DNA from: Natrinema saccharevitans
Lineage (GTDB): Archaea; Halobacteriota; Halobacteria; Halobacteriales; Natrialbaceae
DNA: 64,000 nucleotides
Assembly (NCBI RefSeq): GCF_001953745.1
Contig: NZ_LWLN01000001.1
Coordinates: forward strand, 868,001 to 932,000
Direction of reading: 5' to 3'
The position numbers and the translations under genes are program-made. Positions 40,989-51,439 of this stretch are shown here, in pieces. Position 1 is the first letter of the stretch; each line of letters begins with the position of its first letter. Under the pieces are notes generated by a model. That model was given only the letters and a program-made list of their open reading frames with translations, had not been told where the DNA came from and made no database searches.

Positions 40989-41306
40989 TCACGGGCTCGC
41001 GGTCGTGTCGCCGTCGCCGAAGATCGTCTCGTGCATCCCGATCACGAGGCCGGGAACGACCGCCATGAACAGGTGTTCCTCGAGGGGGATGCCGGCGACG
41101 TCGATCCCGGTCCGAAGTTTGATGTCGAAGACGCCGACGGCGAGGGTATAGCGGTCCCAGATGTAGGCGATGGGGTACAGCGCGAGGATCGTCACGGCGG
41201 CCTTCCGGACGGCGTTCGCGCGACGCAACAGGAGCGCAGCGACGATTCCCCAGACGAGTTCGGTCACGAGGTAGGTGTAGCGTCCGAAGACGCTGATGTC
41301 GACCAT
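40989..41306 (-). CDS. Lycopene-cyclase-domain membrane protein (single repeat)
   Basis: 105 residues, three hydrophobic helices, with the family motif IPLEEHLFMAVVPGLV near residue 72-88. Lycopene cyclases of this type normally contain two such repeats in about 230 residues, or two separate small proteins (CrtYc/CrtYd). Only one is present here. It may work as a homodimer or be a different, cyclase-derived membrane enzyme. A TATA element (GTTTTTATACT on the minus strand) lies 22-30 nt upstream. Divergent from the CBS gene. Confidence 0.75.
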   Translation of the reverse strand: MVDISVFGRYTYLVTELVWGIVAALLLRRANAVRKAAVTILALYPIAYIWDRYTLAVGVFDIKLRTGIDVAGIPLEEHLFMAVVPGLVIGMHETIFGDGDTTASP

Positions 41307-41325
41307 CGACGGCCATTCAACGGCC

Positions 41326-41336
41326 AGTATAAAAAC
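41326..41336 (-). promoter_or_regulatory. TATA element of lycopene-cyclase-domain gene
   Basis: Plus-strand AGTATAAAAAC; on the minus strand it is centred about 25 nt from the ATG at 41306. Confidence 0.6.
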
Positions 41337-41370
41337 ACCCGGGCTGAAGCCACCCGGATAAAACGTGCAG

Positions 41371-41381
41371 TATTTTAAATA
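41371..41381 (+). promoter_or_regulatory. TATA element of CBS-protein gene
   Basis: TATTTTAAATA, 30-40 nt upstream of the ATG at 41411, so a leader of only a few nucleotides is expected. Confidence 0.55.
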
Positions 41382-41410
41382 CCCCGGCGGCTCTACGTTC
41401 ACGCAGAAAG

Positions 41411-42568
41411 ATGAATATCGCTGATATCGCCACCACGGAGTTCATCGAAGTCGACGTCGGAACGCGAATGGGGAAGGTTCGGTCCATGTTCGAAGACGGC
41501 AACCCCAAGGGGATCATCGTCACGAACGACGGGGACTACGAGGGGGTCATCAGCGAGCGGGAGGTTCTCCAGTCCCACGTCGAGGACGACGCCAAGGTGG
41601 CGGCACTGACGAAGCCGAGCCGGAGTACGCCCTCACCCAAGGTCGACCGACAGGAGGATGTCCGGGAGACCGCCCGCGTTCTCGTCGAGAGCAACGCGAA
41701 GGTCGCGCCGGTCTTCGAGAACGACGACCTCTGGGGCGTCATCACCGACGACGCGATCCTCGAGGCCGTTCTCGAGAACCTCGACGCGCTGACCGTCGAC
41801 GACATCTACACCGCCGATCCGGTCACGGTCACCGAAGACGACGGGATCGGCAAGGCGATCAATCTCCTGCGCGAACACGGTATCTCTCGCCTGCCCGTCA
41901 TGAACGAGAACGGCTACCTCGCCGGGGTCGTCACGACCCACGACATCGCCGACTTCGTCATCCGGGAGAACCACACGACGACGACCGGCGACCGGGTCGG
42001 TGACAGCCAGCGTCTGCTCGACGTGCCCGTCTACGACATCATGACCAGCCCCGTCGAGACGACCACGCTGGACACGACCGCGAAAGCGGCCGTCGAGACG
42101 ATGCTTGGCAACGACTACGCGGGGCTTATGGTCACGCCCGAGGACGACGGTCGGGTCGTCATCGGCGTCATCACCAAGACCGACGTCCTGCGGGCGCTGA
42201 CCTTCACCGAAGAGGAACACATGGACGTTCAGATCACCAACATCTCGATGCTCGACACCATCACTCGAGAGGGGATCGTCGAGAGCATCGAGGAGGTCGT
42301 CGACAAGTACCAGGACATGCAGGTGATGCACGCCCACGTTCGGTTCAAGGAACATCAGGAACGGCTCCGCGGAACGCCGCTCGTGCAGTGTCAGATCCGC
42401 CTGCGAACGAACAAGGGTCAGGTCGCCGGAACCGGCGAGGGCTACGGCTCGGAGAACGCCTTCCGCGTCGCGCTCGACAAACTCGAGCGCAACGTCCTCG
42501 AACTCAAAGGCGTCACCAGCGACGAGGAGTACCGCGGCCAGCTCCTGCGGAAGCTCAACGAACTGTAG
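41411..42568 (+). CDS. CBS-domain protein with a ribosome-hibernation-like tail
   Basis: 385 residues. Four CBS repeats at about 1-60, 68-120, 128-185 and 205-270, each with the strand-helix pattern (for example GISRLPVMNENGYLAGVVTTHDIADFV). Residues 290-385 form a different domain (MQVMHAHVRFKEHQERLRGT ... QIRLRTNKGQVAGTGEGYGSENAFRVALDKLER) that resembles the HPF/RaiA fold of ribosome hibernation factors. CBS domains bind adenine nucleotides, so this could be an energy-sensing translation factor. That role is inference. Convergent with radB; complete and intact. Confidence 0.8.
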   Translation: MNIADIATTEFIEVDVGTRMGKVRSMFEDGNPKGIIVTNDGDYEGVISEREVLQSHVEDDAKVAALTKPSRSTPSPKVDRQEDVRETARVLVESNAKVAPVFENDDLWGVITDDAILEAVLENLDALTVDDIYTADPVTVTEDDGIGKAINLLREHGISRLPVMNENGYLAGVVTTHDIADFVIRENHTTTTGDRVGDSQRLLDVPVYDIMTSPVETTTLDTTAKAAVETMLGNDYAGLMVTPEDDGRVVIGVITKTDVLRALTFTEEEHMDVQITNISMLDTITREGIVESIEEVVDKYQDMQVMHAHVRFKEHQERLRGTPLVQCQIRLRTNKGQVAGTGEGYGSENAFRVALDKLERNVLELKGVTSDEEYRGQLLRKLNEL

Positions 42569-42586
42569 CGCCGACTCGGTGCGGGC

Positions 42587-43294
42587 TCAGTGGCGCGCCG
42601 ACTCCTCGCCGCCCTCGAGCCCCCGATCCGTGATCCGGAACTGAACCGACTCGCCGGCCGGCTTCGAGCGGTGTTTCTCCAGCGTCGCGCGTCGGTTCCC
42701 GCCACGGAACCGCTCCAAGCGGACGACGGTCCCGGTCCAGTGTTCCAACGTGTTACCGCCCAGTCCCCGGGTCCGATCCGAGTCGGGATCCGAAAAGACC
42801 TGGTTCGTCAGGACGACCGCCAGATCGTGTTTCCGCGCGAGCGAGAGCAGGTGAGTCACCTGCCGGGTGACGCTGCGCAGCGCCTCCCCCTCGTCGCCGT
42901 CGGCGGTGCGCTCGAGTCGGTAAAATCCCGTCGCGCTGTCCAGTACGATCAGTTCCGCGCGCTCGGCGAACTCCTCGGCGTCGCGGACGGCCTCGGCCTG
43001 TTCCTCGAAGTCGACGGCGTCTTCGATGACGATCCGCGAGGCGACGGCCTCGAGGTCCCCGTCGTCGACGCTCCCCTCGAGCAACTGCTCGAAGCGGTCG
43101 ACCGAGACGCCTTCGGTATCGATATAGACGACGGTCCCCCCGTCGACGGCCGTCTCGACGGCCGCCGACAGCGCGAGGTTCGTCTTCCCGGCCGCCGGCG
43201 GGCCGTACAACTGCGTGACGGTCCCGCGTTCGAACCCCCCGTCGAGCAACTCGTCGACCGGGCCACAGCCGGTCGGGATCGCCTCGTCGGTCAC
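42587..43294 (-). CDS. radB: RadB recombinase paralogue
   Basis: 235 residues from a GTG start. The Walker A GPPAAGKTN, then VVYIDTEGVSVDRF, LIVLDSATGFYRLE (Walker B) and a final GLGGNTLEHWTGTVVRLER/ATLEKHRS segment are typical of RadB, which lacks the N-terminal HhH domain of RadA. Regulates RadA in recombination. The start at GTG 43294 is supported by a TTTTTGCGC TATA-like element 21-31 nt upstream. The longer frame (to 43372) would include that promoter. Divergent from the RNase H-like gene at 43473. Confidence 0.9.
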   Translation of the reverse strand: MTDEAIPTGCGPVDELLDGGFERGTVTQLYGPPAAGKTNLALSAAVETAVDGGTVVYIDTEGVSVDRFEQLLEGSVDDGDLEAVASRIVIEDAVDFEEQAEAVRDAEEFAERAELIVLDSATGFYRLERTADGDEGEALRSVTRQVTHLLSLARKHDLAVVLTNQVFSDPDSDRTRGLGGNTLEHWTGTVVRLERFRGGNRRATLEKHRSKPAGESVQFRITDRGLEGGEESARH

Positions 43295-43472
43295 GGTTCG
43301 AGTTGACGGGGTACGCGCAAAAAGGCCCCGGAACGGGCCGACGCGGGACACCACCGCCGCCTCGAGGGCCATCGCGGCCCGATACCGTCGGTGCCTGTCT
43401 CCGACCGACGGGCCGTCCCGATGATCGAACCCGGTCGCGTACGTTTATTCCTCGGGGGAGCGAAGGTCGCCC

Positions 43473-44264
43473 GTGATCGTCGTCGCTACGGCCGACTTCG
43501 AGGTGTACCACGGCGTCGTCAACGAACTTCGCGACCGCGGTACGACGTTTACCACCGTCGAACTCGACGAGGAACTCCCCCAGCGGACGAGCGTCGTCAT
43601 CTCCGACGCGGACAGCGCCGACGCGTTCGCGGACGCAACGACCGTCGTCGCCGATCCGGACGATCCGCGGCGCGCGGTCGACCGGGCGCTGGCGGCCGTT
43701 CGCGGCGACGGCGGCCGGACGATCATCGGCGTCGATCCCGGCCGCAAACCCGGCATCGCCGTCCTCACCGGCGAGACGGTCGTCGCCGCCTTTCAGGTCC
43801 CGCTCTCCGACGCCGTCGACGTGATCGAACGCGAAGCCGCCGACGCGTCCGCCCCGGTCGTCCGGATCGGCGACGGCTCCCGCCTCGAGAGCGCGACGCT
43901 GGTCAACGACCTCGAGGACGTCCGGGTCGAACTCGTCGACGAGACGGGGACGACCCCCTACCTCGGAACGGGCGCGCGGGGGATGGGCGACGTGCTGGCC
44001 GCGGTCAACATCGCCCGGCTCGAGGGCGAGGTCGCCGACGAACGGGAGATCGAGCCGACCGCGGGCGAGATTCAGGTCATCAAGGACCGCTCGCGCGAGC
44101 AAAGCGAACACAACCGGGCGATCGACGAGGGTCTGGCCCGGCGGGTCGCCGCCGGCGAGTTGACGGTCGACGAGGCGCTCGCGCGACACCGCGACGACGG
44201 GACTGGATCGGAAACCGGGTCGAGCGAGACGGACGACGCCGACGGCTCGGAGCCGTCATCGTAG
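43473..44264 (+). CDS. Predicted RNase H/RuvC-like protein divergent from radB
   Basis: 263 residues from a GTG start; a TTTATT element lies 24-29 nt upstream. Residues 1-80 look like a small alpha/beta domain. Residues 84-190 begin IIGVDPGRKPGIAVLTG, the pattern of the first strand of RuvC-type RNase H folds, with Asp88. Further acidic residues at about 134 (RIGDGS), 157 (DETGTT) and 173 (GMGDVLAAVNIA) could complete a metal site. The C-terminus has a helical repeat and an acidic tail. I know no characterised function. The place beside radB suggests recombination, but that is only context. Confidence 0.65.
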   Translation: MIVVATADFEVYHGVVNELRDRGTTFTTVELDEELPQRTSVVISDADSADAFADATTVVADPDDPRRAVDRALAAVRGDGGRTIIGVDPGRKPGIAVLTGETVVAAFQVPLSDAVDVIEREAADASAPVVRIGDGSRLESATLVNDLEDVRVELVDETGTTPYLGTGARGMGDVLAAVNIARLEGEVADEREIEPTAGEIQVIKDRSREQSEHNRAIDEGLARRVAAGELTVDEALARHRDDGTGSETGSSETDDADGSEPSS

Positions 44265-44341
44265 GGCGCGGAAAACCGGACAAAAGAAACGGATACGTCG
44301 GTCACTGCGGTCGAAAATCGACCGTGTGACTGATCGATAGG

Positions 44342-45901
44342 TTACGCGCCGACCCAGGCGTTCGTCGAGGCGACCGACGTGAGCTGGACGTTTTCGTTCT
44401 CCTGCAGGCTGATCTGTGAACTCCCGGCGCTGCCGCCGTCTTCAGCGACCGCGACGGAGGTGTGCTGCTCGTTCAAGTTCTCCTGCGTGATGAACTGCTG
44501 CTGGGCGATGGCGGCGCTTGCCTCCTGCTCGACGTCGTTCGTCTGCGTGGCGTTACCGGCGTAGTCGTACGACGTGCCGGGCGCCATCCCCGCGTTCCCG
44601 TCGACCGTGACGGTCGTACTCGAGGTCCGGGTGACGTCGTCGGAGACGTAGCCCGGGCTCGCGTAGACGTTGAGCGCGTCGGCGTAGGCCAGTTGCGCGT
44701 TGTAGTTCTGCTGGTAGGCGAGCTGGATCGCCGTGGCCTCGCTCCCGTTCTGTGCGAGGGCCATGGCGGTGTTCTGGAGGTTGATGTTCCGCTGTTCGAC
44801 CTCCTGTTCTTGGGCTACGGCCGCGGTCGCGGTCTGTTCGGTATCGTTGAGGTCGTCGTTCTTGTCCTTCTTATCGGGGCCGTGCGTGTCCGTCTCGGTC
44901 GAGAGAACCTCGCCGCTGACGTCGCCCGCGGTCGCGACGTTCATCCCGAGAGAAGAGGCCATCAGGTTCGAGGCGGTGGCGCTGCCGAACTGCTCGTTGA
45001 GGTTGCTCTGGTCGGTAAACTGGATCGCCGTAGCGGTGCTATTCTCGCCGATCGCGATGGCGACTGCACCGCCCTGTTCGTTGACATTCTGTTGAGCGAC
45101 GTCCTGGGACTGATCGAGCGACGCGGATGCGCTCTGGCCTGTTCCGGACTCGTCGCCGGATTTGTCCTTCGCGTGGCCGAACTCCCCGTCACCGAGGTAG
45201 ACGTTCGAAGCGTTGGCCATTCCCTCCTGTAGGTTCTCGTTTCGCTGGTAGGACTGCTGGAGTGCAGTCGCGTCGCTGTCGTCCATGGCGAACGCGAACG
45301 CGGTGCTCTGGTTGTTGTAGTTGACCTGGCCGACCGTCTGGGACTGGGTCACGCTGGCGATGGCCTCTTCGGTCTCGGTCCCATCGTCATCTTTCTTGTC
45401 CTTGATCCCCCAGCCGTCGAACTGCTGGTCGTCGCCGTTACCGATGATGATATTGACCTCGCCGACGTTCTCGAACTGCGTCTCCGCGCTCCGAACGTCG
45501 ACGTTTCCGGTGGTCGCCTCACCGGTCTGGACGTTGTCGTTCTGCTGGTTGGCCTCCTGAATGGCGGTCGCTTCGCCACCGTCGATCGCGATCGACACTG
45601 CCGAGCCCCGTTCTTGGAGCTCGACCAGATCGACGTCCGGATGCTGGATGACTTCGGCACCGGAACTGTTCGCATCGTTCGCGTGTTCGTCGATGTACTC
45701 CTCGAGCGACTGCTCACCGAGGTCCGCGCCGAAGACGAGATACAGCTCCTCGCCGTCCTCGAGCGTGTGTATCGTGTCACTGTTGGCCGCGGCGTCCTCG
45801 GCGGTCGCCGCGGGGACGCCGACTGCTACCATCGACAAGGCCACCATACAGGCCATAAGAACCGTCGTAGTTCGTGATCGTCTCGTTGTGTCGTGTTTCA
45901 T
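44342..45901 (-). CDS. Secreted five-module Q/N-ladder protein (curli-like amyloid candidate)
   Basis: 519 residues. A Sec signal peptide (residues 11-34, ending PAATA) leads into an acidic stretch, then five repeat modules at about 91-136, 179-236, 257-315, 356-414 and 459-517. Each module has the pattern Q-x-Q-x-V-x-Q-x-N-x-N-x-Q, then A-x-A-x-A-x5-A-x-A-x-Q, then Q-x-N-x-N-x-Q and A-x-A-x-N. Alternating hydrophobic/amide residues point to a beta-solenoid or amyloid fold. Spacers between modules are charged Asp/Lys/Gly loops. No Cys, no anchor and no sorting signal is seen. Divergent from two small paralogues at 46564 and 46893 that share the pattern. Confidence 0.8.
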   Translation of the reverse strand: MKHDTTRRSRTTTVLMACMVALSMVAVGVPAATAEDAAANSDTIHTLEDGEELYLVFGADLGEQSLEEYIDEHANDANSSGAEVIQHPDVDLVELQERGSAVSIAIDGGEATAIQEANQQNDNVQTGEATTGNVDVRSAETQFENVGEVNIIIGNGDDQQFDGWGIKDKKDDDGTETEEAIASVTQSQTVGQVNYNNQSTAFAFAMDDSDATALQQSYQRNENLQEGMANASNVYLGDGEFGHAKDKSGDESGTGQSASASLDQSQDVAQQNVNEQGGAVAIAIGENSTATAIQFTDQSNLNEQFGSATASNLMASSLGMNVATAGDVSGEVLSTETDTHGPDKKDKNDDLNDTEQTATAAVAQEQEVEQRNINLQNTAMALAQNGSEATAIQLAYQQNYNAQLAYADALNVYASPGYVSDDVTRTSSTTVTVDGNAGMAPGTSYDYAGNATQTNDVEQEASAAIAQQQFITQENLNEQHTSVAVAEDGGSAGSSQISLQENENVQLTSVASTNAWVGA

Positions 45902-46563
45902 TGATCGTTGGATTGGTGTCGTGATGGTCTTTCGTTTCTGAGTCTCTGCGATGCGAACCATCCTATCCGCATGAGTCCCTTTGTTATCTACAGGTTGGGG
46001 CCGGTATGGAGTGGACTAGAGATCCGAAGGTGACCGCTTACGGAACGAAATCGGAGACTTGGACTGCTGTAGCCCGTATTCGGCGAATTAAACGACCGAA
46101 TTCCGATCGTAAGTCGGCGTGACGAGAGAGCACGAAAACAGTCGATACTGTCCCGTCCCGACGATTGTTTCGGAGGTCGAATGCGGTGATTAGGGTTTCA
46201 TACTCAAGTACCAACGGCTTTACAGCGAATATTGCGGTGACGGCGTAGGGCGACGCTTCCGTCGAAACCAAAGGGGCGAATGCGCTACGATCAGCCGAAT
46301 CCGGATAAGGCCACGCCTACAGGAAGTGAAAAACCACTTGCAGCCGTAAGAGAAGCCCTCAGTCGCTCTAATTCCGCTATTCTTGCCGAAACCGTTTACC
46401 GGGTTCAAATAGGTTCCCGTTCAGGTGGCCACTGGGAAACGCGCCACAGCGGGGAGTGACCGGGAGACGACGGCCGAATTCGCGACGAGCGATAGCACCG
46501 TCATTCGACGGGACGGCCCCTCGAGGGCGGCCCCAGCGTGGCGTGGTACCCACACATAACACA
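45902..46563. other. Divergent intergenic region between repeat-protein genes
   Basis: 662 bp, lower in GC than its surroundings. Open frames on either strand carry no family features. A short hairpin (AAGTG-AAAAAC-CACTT, about 46323-46338) is present. No clear TATA at the usual distance before either start codon, so both genes may have leaders. Confidence 0.5.
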
Positions 46564-46896
46564 ATGAACCGCGCACTCACGCTCGCACTGACGGTAGCAC
46601 TGATCGGTGGCCTCGCGTTCATGGGGGCCGCGGGAACAGCCGCAGCGACTGACGACGGCCAGTCGAACGACGCGGACATCGACCAAGACCAGAGAGTCGC
46701 TCAGGGAGCCGACGTCTCGAGCGAGGACAGTTGGGCGATCGCAGTGGACTTCGGCGATAAAGGCAACGGTGACGGACCGACGGCCAACACCGGAAACGAA
46801 GTGAAGCAGACGTCGGACAATCACCAAAACGCTGACATCTACCAGGACAACGAGAACATCGAAGATTCCCTTTTCGTCGAACTGGGTGGCCTATGA
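46564..46896 (+). CDS. Small secreted Q/N-ladder protein 1
   Basis: 110 residues. Sec signal peptide (MNRALTLALTVALIGGLAFM ... AAA), mature from about residue 28. The mature part has QSNDADIDQDQRVAQ, then a Gly/Asp spacer, then NEVKQTSDNHQNADIYQDN and a tail EDSLFVELGG. The Q-x-N-x-x-Q spacing matches modules of the large protein at 44342. Its stop overlaps the next start by 4 nt (ATGA). Probably a subunit of an extracellular fibre; that is inference. Confidence 0.75.
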   Translation: MNRALTLALTVALIGGLAFMGAAGTAAATDDGQSNDADIDQDQRVAQGADVSSEDSWAIAVDFGDKGNGDGPTANTGNEVKQTSDNHQNADIYQDNENIEDSLFVELGGL

Positions 46897-47195
46897 ACCG
46901 CGCACTCACGCTCGCACTGACGATCGCACTGATCGGTAGCCTCGCGGTTACGGGACTCGCCGGAACGGCCGCAGCCGCCAGCCAGTCGAACGACGCGGAT
47001 ATCGATCAGGACCAGACCGTCGTACAGACGTCCTCCTCGTCCAGCGATGGCAGCGTCGCGATAGCCATCGGTGACGATTCCGAGGCGAACAGCGGGAACT
47101 ACGTCGAACAGAGCAGCACGAACACCCAAACCGCGACGATAGACCAGTACAACAGCAACACCGAGGATTCCGTGTTCTTCACCCTCGGATTCTGA
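46893..47195 (+). CDS. Small secreted Q/N-ladder protein 2
   Basis: 100 residues. The same signal peptide as the preceding gene with near-identical DNA in the first 50 bases, so the two arose by tandem duplication. The mature part has QSNDADIDQDQTVVQ, GSVAIAIGDDSEA, GNYVEQSSTNTQTATIDQYN and a tail EDSVFFTLGF. VAIAIGDDS mirrors AVAIAIGENS in module 3 of the large protein, which links the two gene types. Starts within the stop of the preceding gene. A T-run terminator follows. Confidence 0.75.
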   Translation: MNRALTLALTIALIGSLAVTGLAGTAAAASQSNDADIDQDQTVVQTSSSSSDGSVAIAIGDDSEANSGNYVEQSSTNTQTATIDQYNSNTEDSVFFTLGF

Positions 47196-47199
47196 GGTG

Positions 47200-47230
47200 A
47201 CGGAACCCGTTCGGTGACTCCCTCTTTTTG
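47200..47230 (+). terminator. T-run after small repeat-protein genes
   Basis: CTCTTTTTG at about 47221-47230, 30 bp after the stop, a typical archaeal poly-T termination signal. Confidence 0.5.
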
Positions 47231-47267
47231 TGGTTGATGCGGCCGCGGTAACCGGTCGGAGACGCGT

Positions 47268-47968
47268 TTCGTCCGACTCACTCGACGACGCATCGGCTCG
47301 ATCCGCCACCCGACGAAGCACATCCTGAACGGGACGGCCGCTCTACCGGGCTACCGCCGCCGCGTCGTCGTACTCCGCGCTCACGTCGCAGACCTCGCCG
47401 TCGGCGTCGCTGGCGATCTTCACGGTGACTTCGTCCGCCTCGCCGTCGATCTCGAGGCTCACAGTCTCGAACGCCCGCTCGGCGATCCATCGATGCGTGG
47501 CCCCTGCATTCCGGACGCCGAGCGTGCCGGTCTCCTCGGCCAGCGCTCGAGCGACCCGTTCCCGATCCGCGGGGTTGCAGATGCCCGGGCCGGGGACTCT
47601 TTCATCGTCGCGGACAGGATCGGCACGTCTCGCGCCCGCGTCCACGAGAGTTGTTACGTCTCGGCGTGGTCGTGTACATGATCATCGTCGGGGAGGACCA
47701 CGTCGACGATCGTGGCCGCGATCCCGGCCTTTTCGGTCTCGTCGATCCGATAGGCCGCCGACAGTGCCTCGGTCACCGGTTCGAGGGCGTCGACGTGGGC
47801 ACCGGCGTCTCTGAACGCGGCGAGAATCAGGTCGACGCTTGCTCCCATCCGGCCGTCGAACGCGAGAACTCCCGGGCCCGTTTTCGGAGCGGAAAACGCA
47901 AAAACCAACCACCGTTCCGAGGTCGGCCGGCTGTCGATAGGGACCAAAACCCACCGAGGCCGGTACAT
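47268..47968 (-). pseudogene. larC: Decayed larC (nickel-pincer cofactor synthesis)
   Basis: The frame at 47654-47968 holds the LarC N-terminus (LAFDGRMGAS ... DAGA) and ends in a His-rich stop. The frame at 47343-47645 holds the C-terminal part (ERVARALAEETGTLGVRNAG, HRWIAERAFETV, VTVKIASDADG). About 250 residues between them are missing. At the junction the expected sequence switches frame twice (DAGAR, then DVPILSATMKES, then ICNPADRERVAR). A TAG interrupts the C-terminal frame, beyond which RPVQDVLRRVADRAD continues in frame. Together these show deletion, frameshifts and a nonsense change. No LarA or LarB gene is present nearby. Confidence 0.85.
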
Positions 47969-48085
47969 CTTTGTAGCCGCCGGTCGGAGATGAGTATGGT
48001 AGCTACTAGCACAGGAAATGACTCACCCTAGCAAAAAACCTATCCGCGCACGAATCGGAGTCAATCACATCGCCGTCCCCAAATC

Positions 48086-50317
48086 ATGAACGAAGTCCAA
48101 CTGGAGGTTGCGAAGGCGTACCCGAACGATTCGGGTCGTGGTATCGCCCGACTCGACCCGGACACGCTGTTGCATCTGAAGCTGAGTCCGGGCGACATCA
48201 TCGAGATCGAGGGTGCAGACACCACTGCCGCGAAGGTCTGGCGCGCCGACCGGCAGGACTGGAACACCGACACGGTCCGCATCGACGGCTTCACGCGCCA
48301 GAACGCCGACGTCGGCATCGGCGAGCGGGTGACGATCCGCAAGGCCGAGGCGACGAAAGCCGACAAGCTCGTCCTCGCACCGCCGGAGGAGGCGTCGGTC
48401 CAGTTCGGTTCCGACGCCGCCGGCATGGTGAAACGCCAGATCCTCAAGCGACCGGTCGTCGGTCGCGACATCGTCCCGGTGATGTCCTCGACGAATCATC
48501 CGTTCATGCGGTCGCCCGGACAGGCGATCCCGCTGATCGCCGTCGAAACCGAGCCCGAGGGAGTAGTCCTCATCACCGAGGACACCGACGTCGAACTCCG
48601 CGAGGAGCCGATCTCGGGGTTCGAAAAGACCGGCGGCGGGATCACCTACGAGGACATCGGTGGCCTCCAAAACGAGATCCAGCGGGTCAGGGAGATGGTC
48701 GAACTCCCGATGAAACACCCGCAGATCTTCAAGAAGCTCGGCATCGAGCCGCCACAGGGCGTCCTGCTGCACGGCCCGCCGGGCACCGGGAAGACCCTGC
48801 TGGCCAAAGCGGTCGCCAACGAGACCTCCGCCAGTTTCTTCTCTATCGCCGGGCCGGAGATCATCTCGAAGTACTACGGCGAGTCCGAACAACAACTCAG
48901 GGAGATCTTCGAGGACGCGACCGAGGAATCGCCCTCGATCATCTTCATCGACGAACTCGACTCCATCGCACCCAAACGCGAGGACGTCACCGGCGAGGTC
49001 GAGCGCCGGGTCGTCGCCCAGCTGCTGACGATGATGGACGGCCTCGAGTCCCGGGGCCAGGTGATCGTCATCGCAGCGACCAACCGCGTCGACAGCGTCG
49101 ATCCCGCGCTCCGACGGCCGGGTCGGTTCGACCGCGAGATCGAGATCGGCGTCCCCGACGAGACGGGCCGCGAGGAGATCCTGCAGATCCACACCCGCGG
49201 GATGCCACTCTCCGACGACGTCAGTCTCGGGCATCTGGCCGACGAGACCCACGGCTTCGTCGGTGCCGACATCGAGAGCCTGACCAAAGAGGCGGCGATG
49301 AAGGCGCTCCGGCGCTACCTCCCCGAGATCGATCTCGACGAGGAGGACATCCCGCCGAGCCTGATCGACCGGATGATCGTCAAACGCGAGGACTTCAGCG
49401 GGGCCTTGAACGAGGTCGAACCCTCGGCGATGCGGGAGGTCCTCGTGGAACTGCCGAAGATCTCCTGGGACGACGTCGGCGGCCTCCACGACGCCAAGGA
49501 GCAGGTTCAGGAATCGGTCGAGTGGCCGCTCTCGAACCCCGAGCGGTTCGACCGGCTCGGTGTCGACCCGCCGGCCGGCGTCTTGCTGTACGGCCCGCCG
49601 GGCACCGGGAAGACGCTGATGGCGAAAGCCGTCGCCAACGAGACCAACGCCAACTTCATCTCGGTGCGTGGGCCACAGTTGCTCTCGAAGTGGGTCGGCG
49701 AGTCGGAGAAGGCCATCCGCCAGACCTTCCGCAAGGCCCGCCAGGTCTCGCCGACGGTCATCTTCTTCGACGAACTCGACGCGCTCGCGCCCGGACGGGG
49801 CGGTGAGACCGGCTCGAACGTCTCCGAGCGGGTCGTCAACCAGCTGCTGACCGAACTCGACGGCCTCGAGGACATGGGCGACGTGATGGTCATCGGCGCG
49901 ACCAACCGACCGGACATGATCGATCCCGCACTGCTGCGCTCGGGGCGCTTCGACCGGCTGGTCATGATCGGGCAGCCCGACGTCGACGGCCGCGAACGCA
50001 TCCTCGAGATCCACACCCAGGACACGCCGCTGGCCGCCGACGTCACCCTGCGCGAGATCGCCGAGATCACGGACGGCTACGTCGGCAGCGACCTCGAGTC
50101 GATCGCCCGCGAGGCGGCCATCGAGGCGCTGCGCGAGGACGAGGGGGCCGACGTCGTCGAGATGCGACACTTCCGCCAGGCCATGGAGAACGTCCGGCCG
50201 ACGATCACCGACGACATCCTCGACTACTACGAGCGGATCGAAGAGGAGTTCCGCGGCGGTGGCGGCGGCGGTCCCGACCCGACGGGGCGGCGCGGCAGCC
50301 GGATCGGCTTCCAGTAA
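48086..50317 (+). CDS. CDC48/VCP-type AAA ATPase, copy 1
   Basis: 743 residues. The N-domain (double-psi barrel, [18 protein letters not shown]) covers about 1-185; D1 AAA domain Walker [10 protein letters not shown] near 235 with [13 protein letters not shown]2 Walker [10 protein letters not shown] near 507 with [16 protein letters not shown]. The C-terminus ends in Gly-rich [13 protein letters not shown]. Unfoldase that feeds proteins to the proteasome or remodels complexes in the cytoplasm. A TATA-like AAAAAACCTAT lies about 45 nt upstream. A T5 run after the stop (50330-50335) is the likely terminator. No intein. Confidence 0.95.
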
Positions 50318-50329
50318 CGCGAGCGACCT

Positions 50330-50336
50330 CTTTTTC
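50330..50336 (+). terminator. Poly-T terminator after CDC48 copy 1
   Basis: CTTTTTC 13 bases after the stop codon. Confidence 0.5.
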
Positions 50337-50374
50337 GCCGTTGCGTCGCGATTCGAAAGTCCCACAGGTCGTCG

Positions 50375-51439
50375 TCATTGCTCGAGGACGGTCACGTCGC
50401 TCGCGGCCGGACTGTCGCCGCCGTGTGGCGTGTCCCGTTCCCGCACCCGGCCCGCGTGGATCGTTTCCGTGGCGTCGTCGATGACGAGGACCTCGCCGGG
50501 GGCCTCCGGCAGCCGGTCGGCCTCTGCCAGCGACCCGCCCACGTAGGTCGGCTGGGCGGCCTCGAGCGCCGCCAGATCGTCCCCGGCCGTGAGCCGGTGC
50601 GAGACGAGGATATCGGACTGAGAGATCCCGACCGCGGGGAGCGCGCTCGGACGCTGTGTCGCAGCCACGAGGCTGACGCCGGGCGCGCGGCCGCGAGTCA
50701 GGATCGTCTCGAGGGCGGGCGCGGCCACGCCGTCGAAGAAGGCGTGGGCCTCGTCGAGCAGGAGCCAGGGGAGCCGGTCGATCGCGCCGTCGACGCGGGC
50801 GCGATACAGCGCTTCGGCGATCCCGCGACAGACGGCGTTCATCGGGGCGGCCGCTCGGCTGGAGACGTCGACGACCGTTATTTCGGGGCTGGCGAGCGCT
50901 CGAGCGCCGAGTCCGTCGGCGTCGAAGACGTCCCACGAGTCGGCCAGCCGCAGGTGGTTCGTCGCGGCGCGTCGCGCGGCGCGTGCCGCGTCCGCCGACT
51001 CGACGTGGGTTCGCATGCCGTCGATCGTGGATTCTGTCTGTGCGGCCCGCCAGAGCAGGCTTCCGGCGGCGCTTTCCGGCGAGAGGCCGAGCAGCGTACA
51101 CCACGACCGGGGGTCGAGCGACGCGGGCGCGACCGTCGGCTCCGCGACGACCGTCGCCGGGACCGGCTCACCGTCCGCCGACGCCGCGAGCGTCGCGAAC
51201 GCCCCCATCGGATCGACGACGACCGGTGCGAGGCCGCGTGCCCGCGCGAGCCCCTCCGCGATCACGCCCATCGTGTGGGACTTGCCGTAGCCGCGTTTGC
51301 CGACGAGGGAAATCGCGTGTGGGGAGTCCAGATCGAGCGCGAGCGGGGCGCCGTCGCTGCCGTCGAGCGCCCGGTAGACACCGAGTCGACAGACGGGGCC
51401 GTCCTCGCGATCGGCGTCGCGACCGAGTACGAAGGTCAC
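50375..51439 (-). CDS. HerA/DUF87-like P-loop ATPase
   Basis: 354 residues from a GTG at 51439 (VTFVLGRDADRE). The Walker A is GKRGYGKSHT near residue 48, Walker B WLLLDEAHAFFDG near 231, and RPSALPAVGISQSDILVSHRLT matches the arginine-finger region of HerA/VirB4-like ATPases. An AAATAC-type TATA (TTCAAATAC on the minus strand, 51461-51470) is about 26 nt upstream of this GTG. A GTG at 51481 would place the TATA inside the gene, so it is rejected. No NurA partner is adjacent. Function unknown. Confidence 0.75.
   Translation of the reverse strand: MTFVLGRDADREDGPVCRLGVYRALDGSDGAPLALDLDSPHAISLVGKRGYGKSHTMGVIAEGLARARGLAPVVVDPMGAFATLAASADGEPVPATVVAEPTVAPASLDPRSWCTLLGLSPESAAGSLLWRAAQTESTIDGMRTHVESADAARAARRAATNHLRLADSWDVFDADGLGARALASPEITVVDVSSRAAAPMNAVCRGIAEALYRARVDGAIDRLPWLLLDEAHAFFDGVAAPALETILTRGRAPGVSLVAATQRPSALPAVGISQSDILVSHRLTAGDDLAALEAAQPTYVGGSLAEADRLPEAPGEVLVIDDATETIHAGRVRERDTPHGGDSPAASDVTVLEQ

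Follow-up and report, generated by a model that had tools for sequence, protein, structure and literature searches.

The 64,000 nucleotides of Natrinema saccharevitans analysed here (the window: contig NZ_LWLN01000001.1, positions 868,001 to 932,000) carry a divergent locus which, with a probability that we put at about one half, would specify a secreted two-component fibre or matrix along the lines of curli or Fap, largely restricted to the Natrialbaceae, with a large five-module protein as its scaffold or nucleator. What such a fibre calls for, homologous multi-module and single-module partners encoded in genetic linkage, is found at this locus. Haloarchaeal biofilms stain like amyloid, and in the Haloferax work the protein responsible is not identified (PMC4180959). 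Among archaea the locus is a candidate for the same logic as curli and Fap; it is present in cultivable Natrinema and relatives, where it is open to gene deletion.

The locus and its ladder module

The large gene (44342..45961, minus strand) encodes a secreted protein of 539 amino acids. Divergent from it, on the plus strand, lie two small genes whose products are predicted to be secreted: A (46564..46896, 110 amino acids from its ATG), with one degenerate module, and B (46893..47195, 100 amino acids), with a single one, joined by an ATGA overlap at 46893-46896. The first-pass annotation had described both the overlapping tandem and the divergence of a large multi-module gene from small ones; the former is borne out, and so is the latter, in the window as in relatives, where the small proteins are mostly single-module. 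A mechanical ORF finder places the start of A at an upstream GTG (46456); we prefer the ATG, because it is there that, by inspection, a signal-peptide-like stretch begins. The parts coding for the signal peptides, also delimited by inspection (46564..46647 in A and 46893..46976 in B, plus strand), are identical at 72 of 84 nucleotides (86%), as against 75% for the mature DNA, so that they are indeed more alike than what follows, yet not almost identical overall, as had been claimed. At the protein level, identity is 82% in the signal and 57% in the mature part, and within their own genome the two signal peptides match only each other. GC3 is 72.7 in A, 80.0 in B, 83.5 in the large gene and 87.7-90.2 in the neighbours. 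The large protein is 83-84% identical to its counterparts in N. mahii and N. thermotolerans.

Next to the small genes, a nickel insertion protein of the LarC type is present in two pieces (47343-47645 and 47654-47968, both on the minus strand), which cover positions 294-365 and 1-71 of the Pfam profile PF01969. The gene is apparently broken, its middle missing; in relatives such as locus L083 it is a single long ORF of 451 amino acids.

Alignment of 49 large proteins reveals five copies of a module. In the window these copies lie, all on the minus strand, at 45491..45664 (module 1, residues 100-157, degenerate here), 45194..45370 (module 2, residues 198-256), 44957..45136 (module 3, residues 276-335, which holds AVAIAIGENS), 44660..44836 (module 4, residues 376-434) and 44351..44527 (module 5, residues 479-537); for modules 2 to 5 a structure prediction supplements the alignment. 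The consensus of 245 segments over 59 positions, Q.A.A.V.Q.Q.V.Q.NVNEQ..AVAIA.DGSEATA.Q.S.Q.N.N.Q.G.A.A.NV, places Q, N, A and V at i,i+2 spacing in a ladder of 11+3 and 12 residues, along which conservation alternates strictly; the register shifts once, ahead of the A-A-A stretch, and the turn falls at D-G-S. In 290 large domains the mean column entropy is 0.62 bits on the ladder versus 2.90 bits in the columns between. The small proteins carry the same Q/N ladder, as had been noticed from A and B: 92 small domains (each of at least 8 bits, from 67 of 118 distinct small proteins) give 1.11 versus 3.07 bits.

That the modules of all three proteins are homologous, another early proposal, is upheld by profile scores set against shuffles. 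The mature part of B reaches 28.2 bits with a module HMM built from large proteins only, the best of 5000 composition-preserving shuffles being at 16.5; its module spans residues 31-87 (46983..47153, plus strand, by HMM alignment). Module 3 is its best match, at E 4.1e-5 within its own genome, and the alignment pairs VAIAIGDDS with AVAIAIGENS, the resemblance first remarked upon. Mature A scores 5.8 bits, a value reached by 59 of the 5000 shuffles, so that its membership rests mainly on its identity to B (65%), of which it is a paralog. Across the family, when scored with the large-only profile, 92 of the 118 distinct small proteins rank above every one of their 200 shuffles, 26 do not, and 105 rank above at least 95% of theirs. 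Comparison of the large and small profiles by hhalign gives 97.0% and E 9.7e-11, in an alignment that takes in the signal-peptide region. The profile used to collect the small set was a different one and took in signal peptides, so that a few weak members are doubtful, among them the 354-aa proteins in L103 and L118. Mature small sequences have a median identity of 31% to B. Both window proteins do end in EDS-x-F-x2-LG (EDSLFVELG in A, 46861..46887; EDSVFFTLG in B, 47163..47189; plus strand), a tail that had been put forward as an assembly or capping motif. A regular expression finds it in 3 of the 118 distinct small proteins, A, B and one from a Natronolimnohabitans locus; it is lineage-specific, and a family-wide capping motif is ruled out.

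AlphaFold2 models the large protein with a mean pLDDT of 56 and a pTM of 0.51, modules 2-5 lying mostly at 70-86, and draws each module as two strands some 20 residues long (196-218 and 234-256 in module 2, at a pLDDT of about 80-86). The model of B, of low confidence (mean pLDDT 62), has just two strands outside the signal. We read the module as a long-armed beta-arch in which Q/N side chains could stack between rungs; predicted strands and ladder are compatible, in the strict sense of that word, with a functional amyloid. It is an unnamed repeat, absent from Pfam, NCBIfam and the PDB: none of the three window proteins has a meaningful Pfam match (the large one has none at E<=10), NCBIfam yields a few weak matches that appear to be due to chance, PDB fold comparison finds no match for the ladder proteins, a viral structure library gives nothing at E<=0.001, and a sequence search of solved structures returns weak chance matches only (best E 0.089). 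In the open-licence literature of PubMed Central no paper was found whose listing points to the family; one candidate, PMC12893001, was rejected, as what it offers on protease-precursor antagonism concerns another, alpha-helical protein.

Distribution and pairing of the two components

Among 391 genomes of the class, 84 contain a match to the large protein at E<=1e-5; of these, 79 belong to the family of the window. With the small profile 83 genomes are found, which, the lists being compared by eye, are the same ones less one; the co-occurrence that had been proposed as a check is thus observed. As the small profile also matches the modules of large proteins, only absences are informative here: a small gene (E<=1e-5) occurs in 0 of 307 haloarchaeal genomes that lack the large gene. 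Searched with B itself, 78 of the family's 125 genomes give matches at E<=0.001, many of which are the large protein.

The 116 loci retrieved yield 97 distinct large proteins, on which pairing was counted; a regular expression divides these into 20 of Tat type and 77 others. A divergent small gene lies within 7 kb of 62 of the 77 non-Tat large proteins versus 0 of the 20 Tat-type ones (Fisher p 1.2e-11, uncorrected for relatedness). The nearest stands at a median of 605 bp from the large gene, and the 62 paired loci hold one small gene in 33 cases, two in 17, three in 10 and four in 2; four further small matches, in three loci (L163, L164 and L171), fall outside the divergent stretch covered by the count. 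For the other 15 of the 77, no small gene is detected on the divergent side. Among them, L083 and L084 have secreted Gly/Asp-rich genes that are divergently placed but score too low for the profile (529-1224 in L083; 611-1072 and 1703-2029 in L084), upstream of the large gene and at the expected place of a small one; they are possibly a further type of subunit. Taken together, these 15 and the 20 Tat-type proteins indicate that the large protein can work alone.

The locus occupies a stable place between RadB and Cdc48: as in the window, Cdc48 is nearby in 65 of the 116 loci and RadB in 49, a context that the Tat-type loci lack. Nine plasmid records, all haloarchaeal, contain a large homolog; phage records and viral contigs, the latter scanned with the large profile, contain no relative. 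In Natronorubrum bangense (L136, L137) the locus, large and small genes alike, is found on the chromosome and on an 828-kb plasmid with identical coordinates and scores. Genes that by similarity and appearance belong to surface-sugar metabolism (nucleotidyltransferase, epimerase, aminotransferase, acetyltransferase) lie near the large gene in L104, L168, L172, L076, L084, L090, L093 and L094.

Some large homologs resemble PGF-CTERM surface proteins in their sorting tail. The model TIGR04126 matches 6 of 8 large proteins tested, 5 of them above the cut-off, the tail pattern is present in 12 of the 97 distinct large proteins, and NCBI names two of the plasmid copies PGF-CTERM. The window copy has neither this tail nor another recognised anchor.

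Exchange of the small genes

The two components appear to have followed different paths. In genera with at least two sampled genomes, 41 of 46 large proteins, as against 28 of 59 small ones, find their best match, the own genome aside, within their genus. In a tree of 50 of 57 large proteins, outside and Tat-type rows being left out, the window joins L066 and L067 at 99. In a tree of 71 of 75 small rows, A and B group at 97 with three small proteins of Natronolimnohabitans innermongolicus. AU tests on 65 of the 71 rows, six long or doubtful ones being dropped, reject a forced group of the window small proteins with their counterparts in L066 and L067 (p 6.8e-9) or with a larger Natrinema set (p 2.9e-12); the groups were picked after the tree had been seen, so that these values overstate the case. 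By sequence, the large protein of the window belongs with Natrinema and its small proteins group with Natronolimnohabitans.

Compared with L066, the window aligns at 89% over 41011-45989 and at 83-94% from 47350 onwards, and the sole gap above 100 bp across 41011-51000 is 45990-47349, a variable island with no DNA similarity to that relative. L066 and L067 have large proteins that are 94% identical and flanks that are 92-94% identical in DNA, and between these flanks, where the small genes lie, nothing aligns; the same holds for L098 and L099. Several Natrinema small genes match the signal-peptide DNA of A at 85-88% identity, while their mature parts are at 50-55, with a shuffle baseline of 56; relative to Natronolimnohabitans small genes the figures are 71-74 for the signal and 60-65 for the mature part. 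Judged by these identities, A is a mosaic, Natrinema-like in its signal and Natronolimnohabitans-like in its mature part, and the junction lies close to the site of signal cleavage. The small genes would form an island exchanged between lineages while the large gene is vertically stable, although differential loss of old paralogs may account for the pattern in place of transfer. Exchange of this kind is not something that a nucleator-subunit pair of fixed stoichiometry, by itself, would predict.

Curli, Fap and the function of the ladder proteins

The likeness to curli lies in secretion, in repeats with alternating inward Asn, Gln and hydrophobic residues, in a major subunit with a homologous minor subunit or nucleator, and in a divergent pair of operons (csgBAC and csgDEF). 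Membership of the curlin family was considered and rejected: PF07012 finds CsgB and CsgA of K-12 (1.3e-24 and 1.4e-27) and, even at E<=10, none of the three window proteins, the module profile scores -0.8 and -6.6 bits on CsgA and CsgB, and no curli secretion genes are seen beside the locus. The curlin repeat averages some 23 residues, among which the N-x-hydrophobic-x-hydrophobic-x-Q motif occurs twice, along with X-G-X-X arcs (PMC12822426, PMC10192328), whereas the ladder module has about 59 and two long strands. Fap of Pseudomonas is similar in its imperfect Q/N-rich repeats, its secreted beta-solenoid and its nucleator with subunit; there, however, by the account in PMC12822426, both FapB and FapC have almost invariably three repeats, so that a system with five modules in the large protein and mostly one in the small is set apart by this description. 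Also to be compared is a single archaeal protein, reported by Dueholm 2012 (PMC3521004), in which curli-like repeats recur at regular spacing. CsgA and FapC are stabilised by hydrogen-bond networks of Asn and Gln (PMC12822426, PMC10192328).

A fibre could then be built as follows. Each module is predicted, with moderate confidence in the AlphaFold2 models, to fold as two long strands that meet at the D-G-S turn, the side chains of the ladder pointing inward. Modules would stack rung on rung through hydrogen bonds between Gln and Asn side chains, as in curli and FapC, and it is in this way that ladder proteins would polymerise. The five-module protein would be a preformed stack, held to the cell in some species by the PGF-CTERM anchor, onto which Sec-exported small subunits would add; being exchangeable, these would define what the fibre presents on its outside, and hence its properties in adhesion or recognition. 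Of the nucleator with subunits originally suggested, the anatomy stands (shared module, divergent pairing, co-occurrence); large genes that have no small partner and the exchange of small genes sit less well with it.

In another reading the large protein would be a receptor or display platform that stays constant at the surface, and the small ones secreted, rapidly exchanged specificity factors, for kind recognition or as a coat for escape from phages or proteases, which bind it by module-module contact and form no long fibres. The variable island between conserved flanks, the looser tie of small proteins to genus and the mosaic A all fit this alternative, which we nevertheless hold to be doubtful: the locus has no receptor, immunity or effector gene, and small proteins that carry the same stacking ladder suggest co-assembly. 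The two readings are compatible if subunits form the outer surface of a fibre. A constant large and a variable small partner could also mean that the large protein, by itself, makes up a folded beta-solenoid of the surface or matrix, the small ones being shed single-module caps or regulators of length. Tat export carries folded proteins, and the Tat-type large proteins, all 20 of them solitary, therefore fit a folded solenoid better than nucleated polymerisation, and indicate that the module family serves another role too. One to four tandem small genes per locus, and the long extensions of many small proteins, seem to go beyond what a cap needs, and this explanation is unlikely. Least probable is that these are polar, salt-adapted secreted proteins with convergent Q/N patterns and no functional link, placed together by duplication of one module and relaxed constraint. 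Mature small sequences do diverge fast, yet the shuffle controls, a ladder that is strict in large and small groups alike, the family-wide divergent pairing and the 307 genomes without either gene speak against it.

We return to the two-component fibre as the preferred reading. Its stable scaffold and swapped subunits provide natural experiments, in the form of near-identical large proteins beside unrelated small genes in close relatives. A broader proposal, tentative as a whole, would see here a new long-armed beta-arch family, defined by its Q/N ladder of about 59 residues, that makes archaeal fibres from a constant scaffold and horizontally exchanged, hypervariable single-module subunits, the coat being swapped at the junction of signal peptide and mature part, possibly for kind recognition, and whose module was also adopted by a lineage of Bacillota beside YheC/D-type genes. 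The latter case is a contig of a metagenome-assembled genome assigned to Thermincola (L185, 7983-10295), which encodes three tandem proteins with two ladder modules each, scoring 115, 112 and 71 bits with the module profile, the best shuffle being at 9.9. By inspection no signal peptide is visible in them, and plasmid records hold no match for the bacterial protein. Its genome is the sole match among 249 searched in its phylum. The neighbours are a PGA_cap gene and ATP-grasp genes of the YheC/D type, which are linked to endospore coats.
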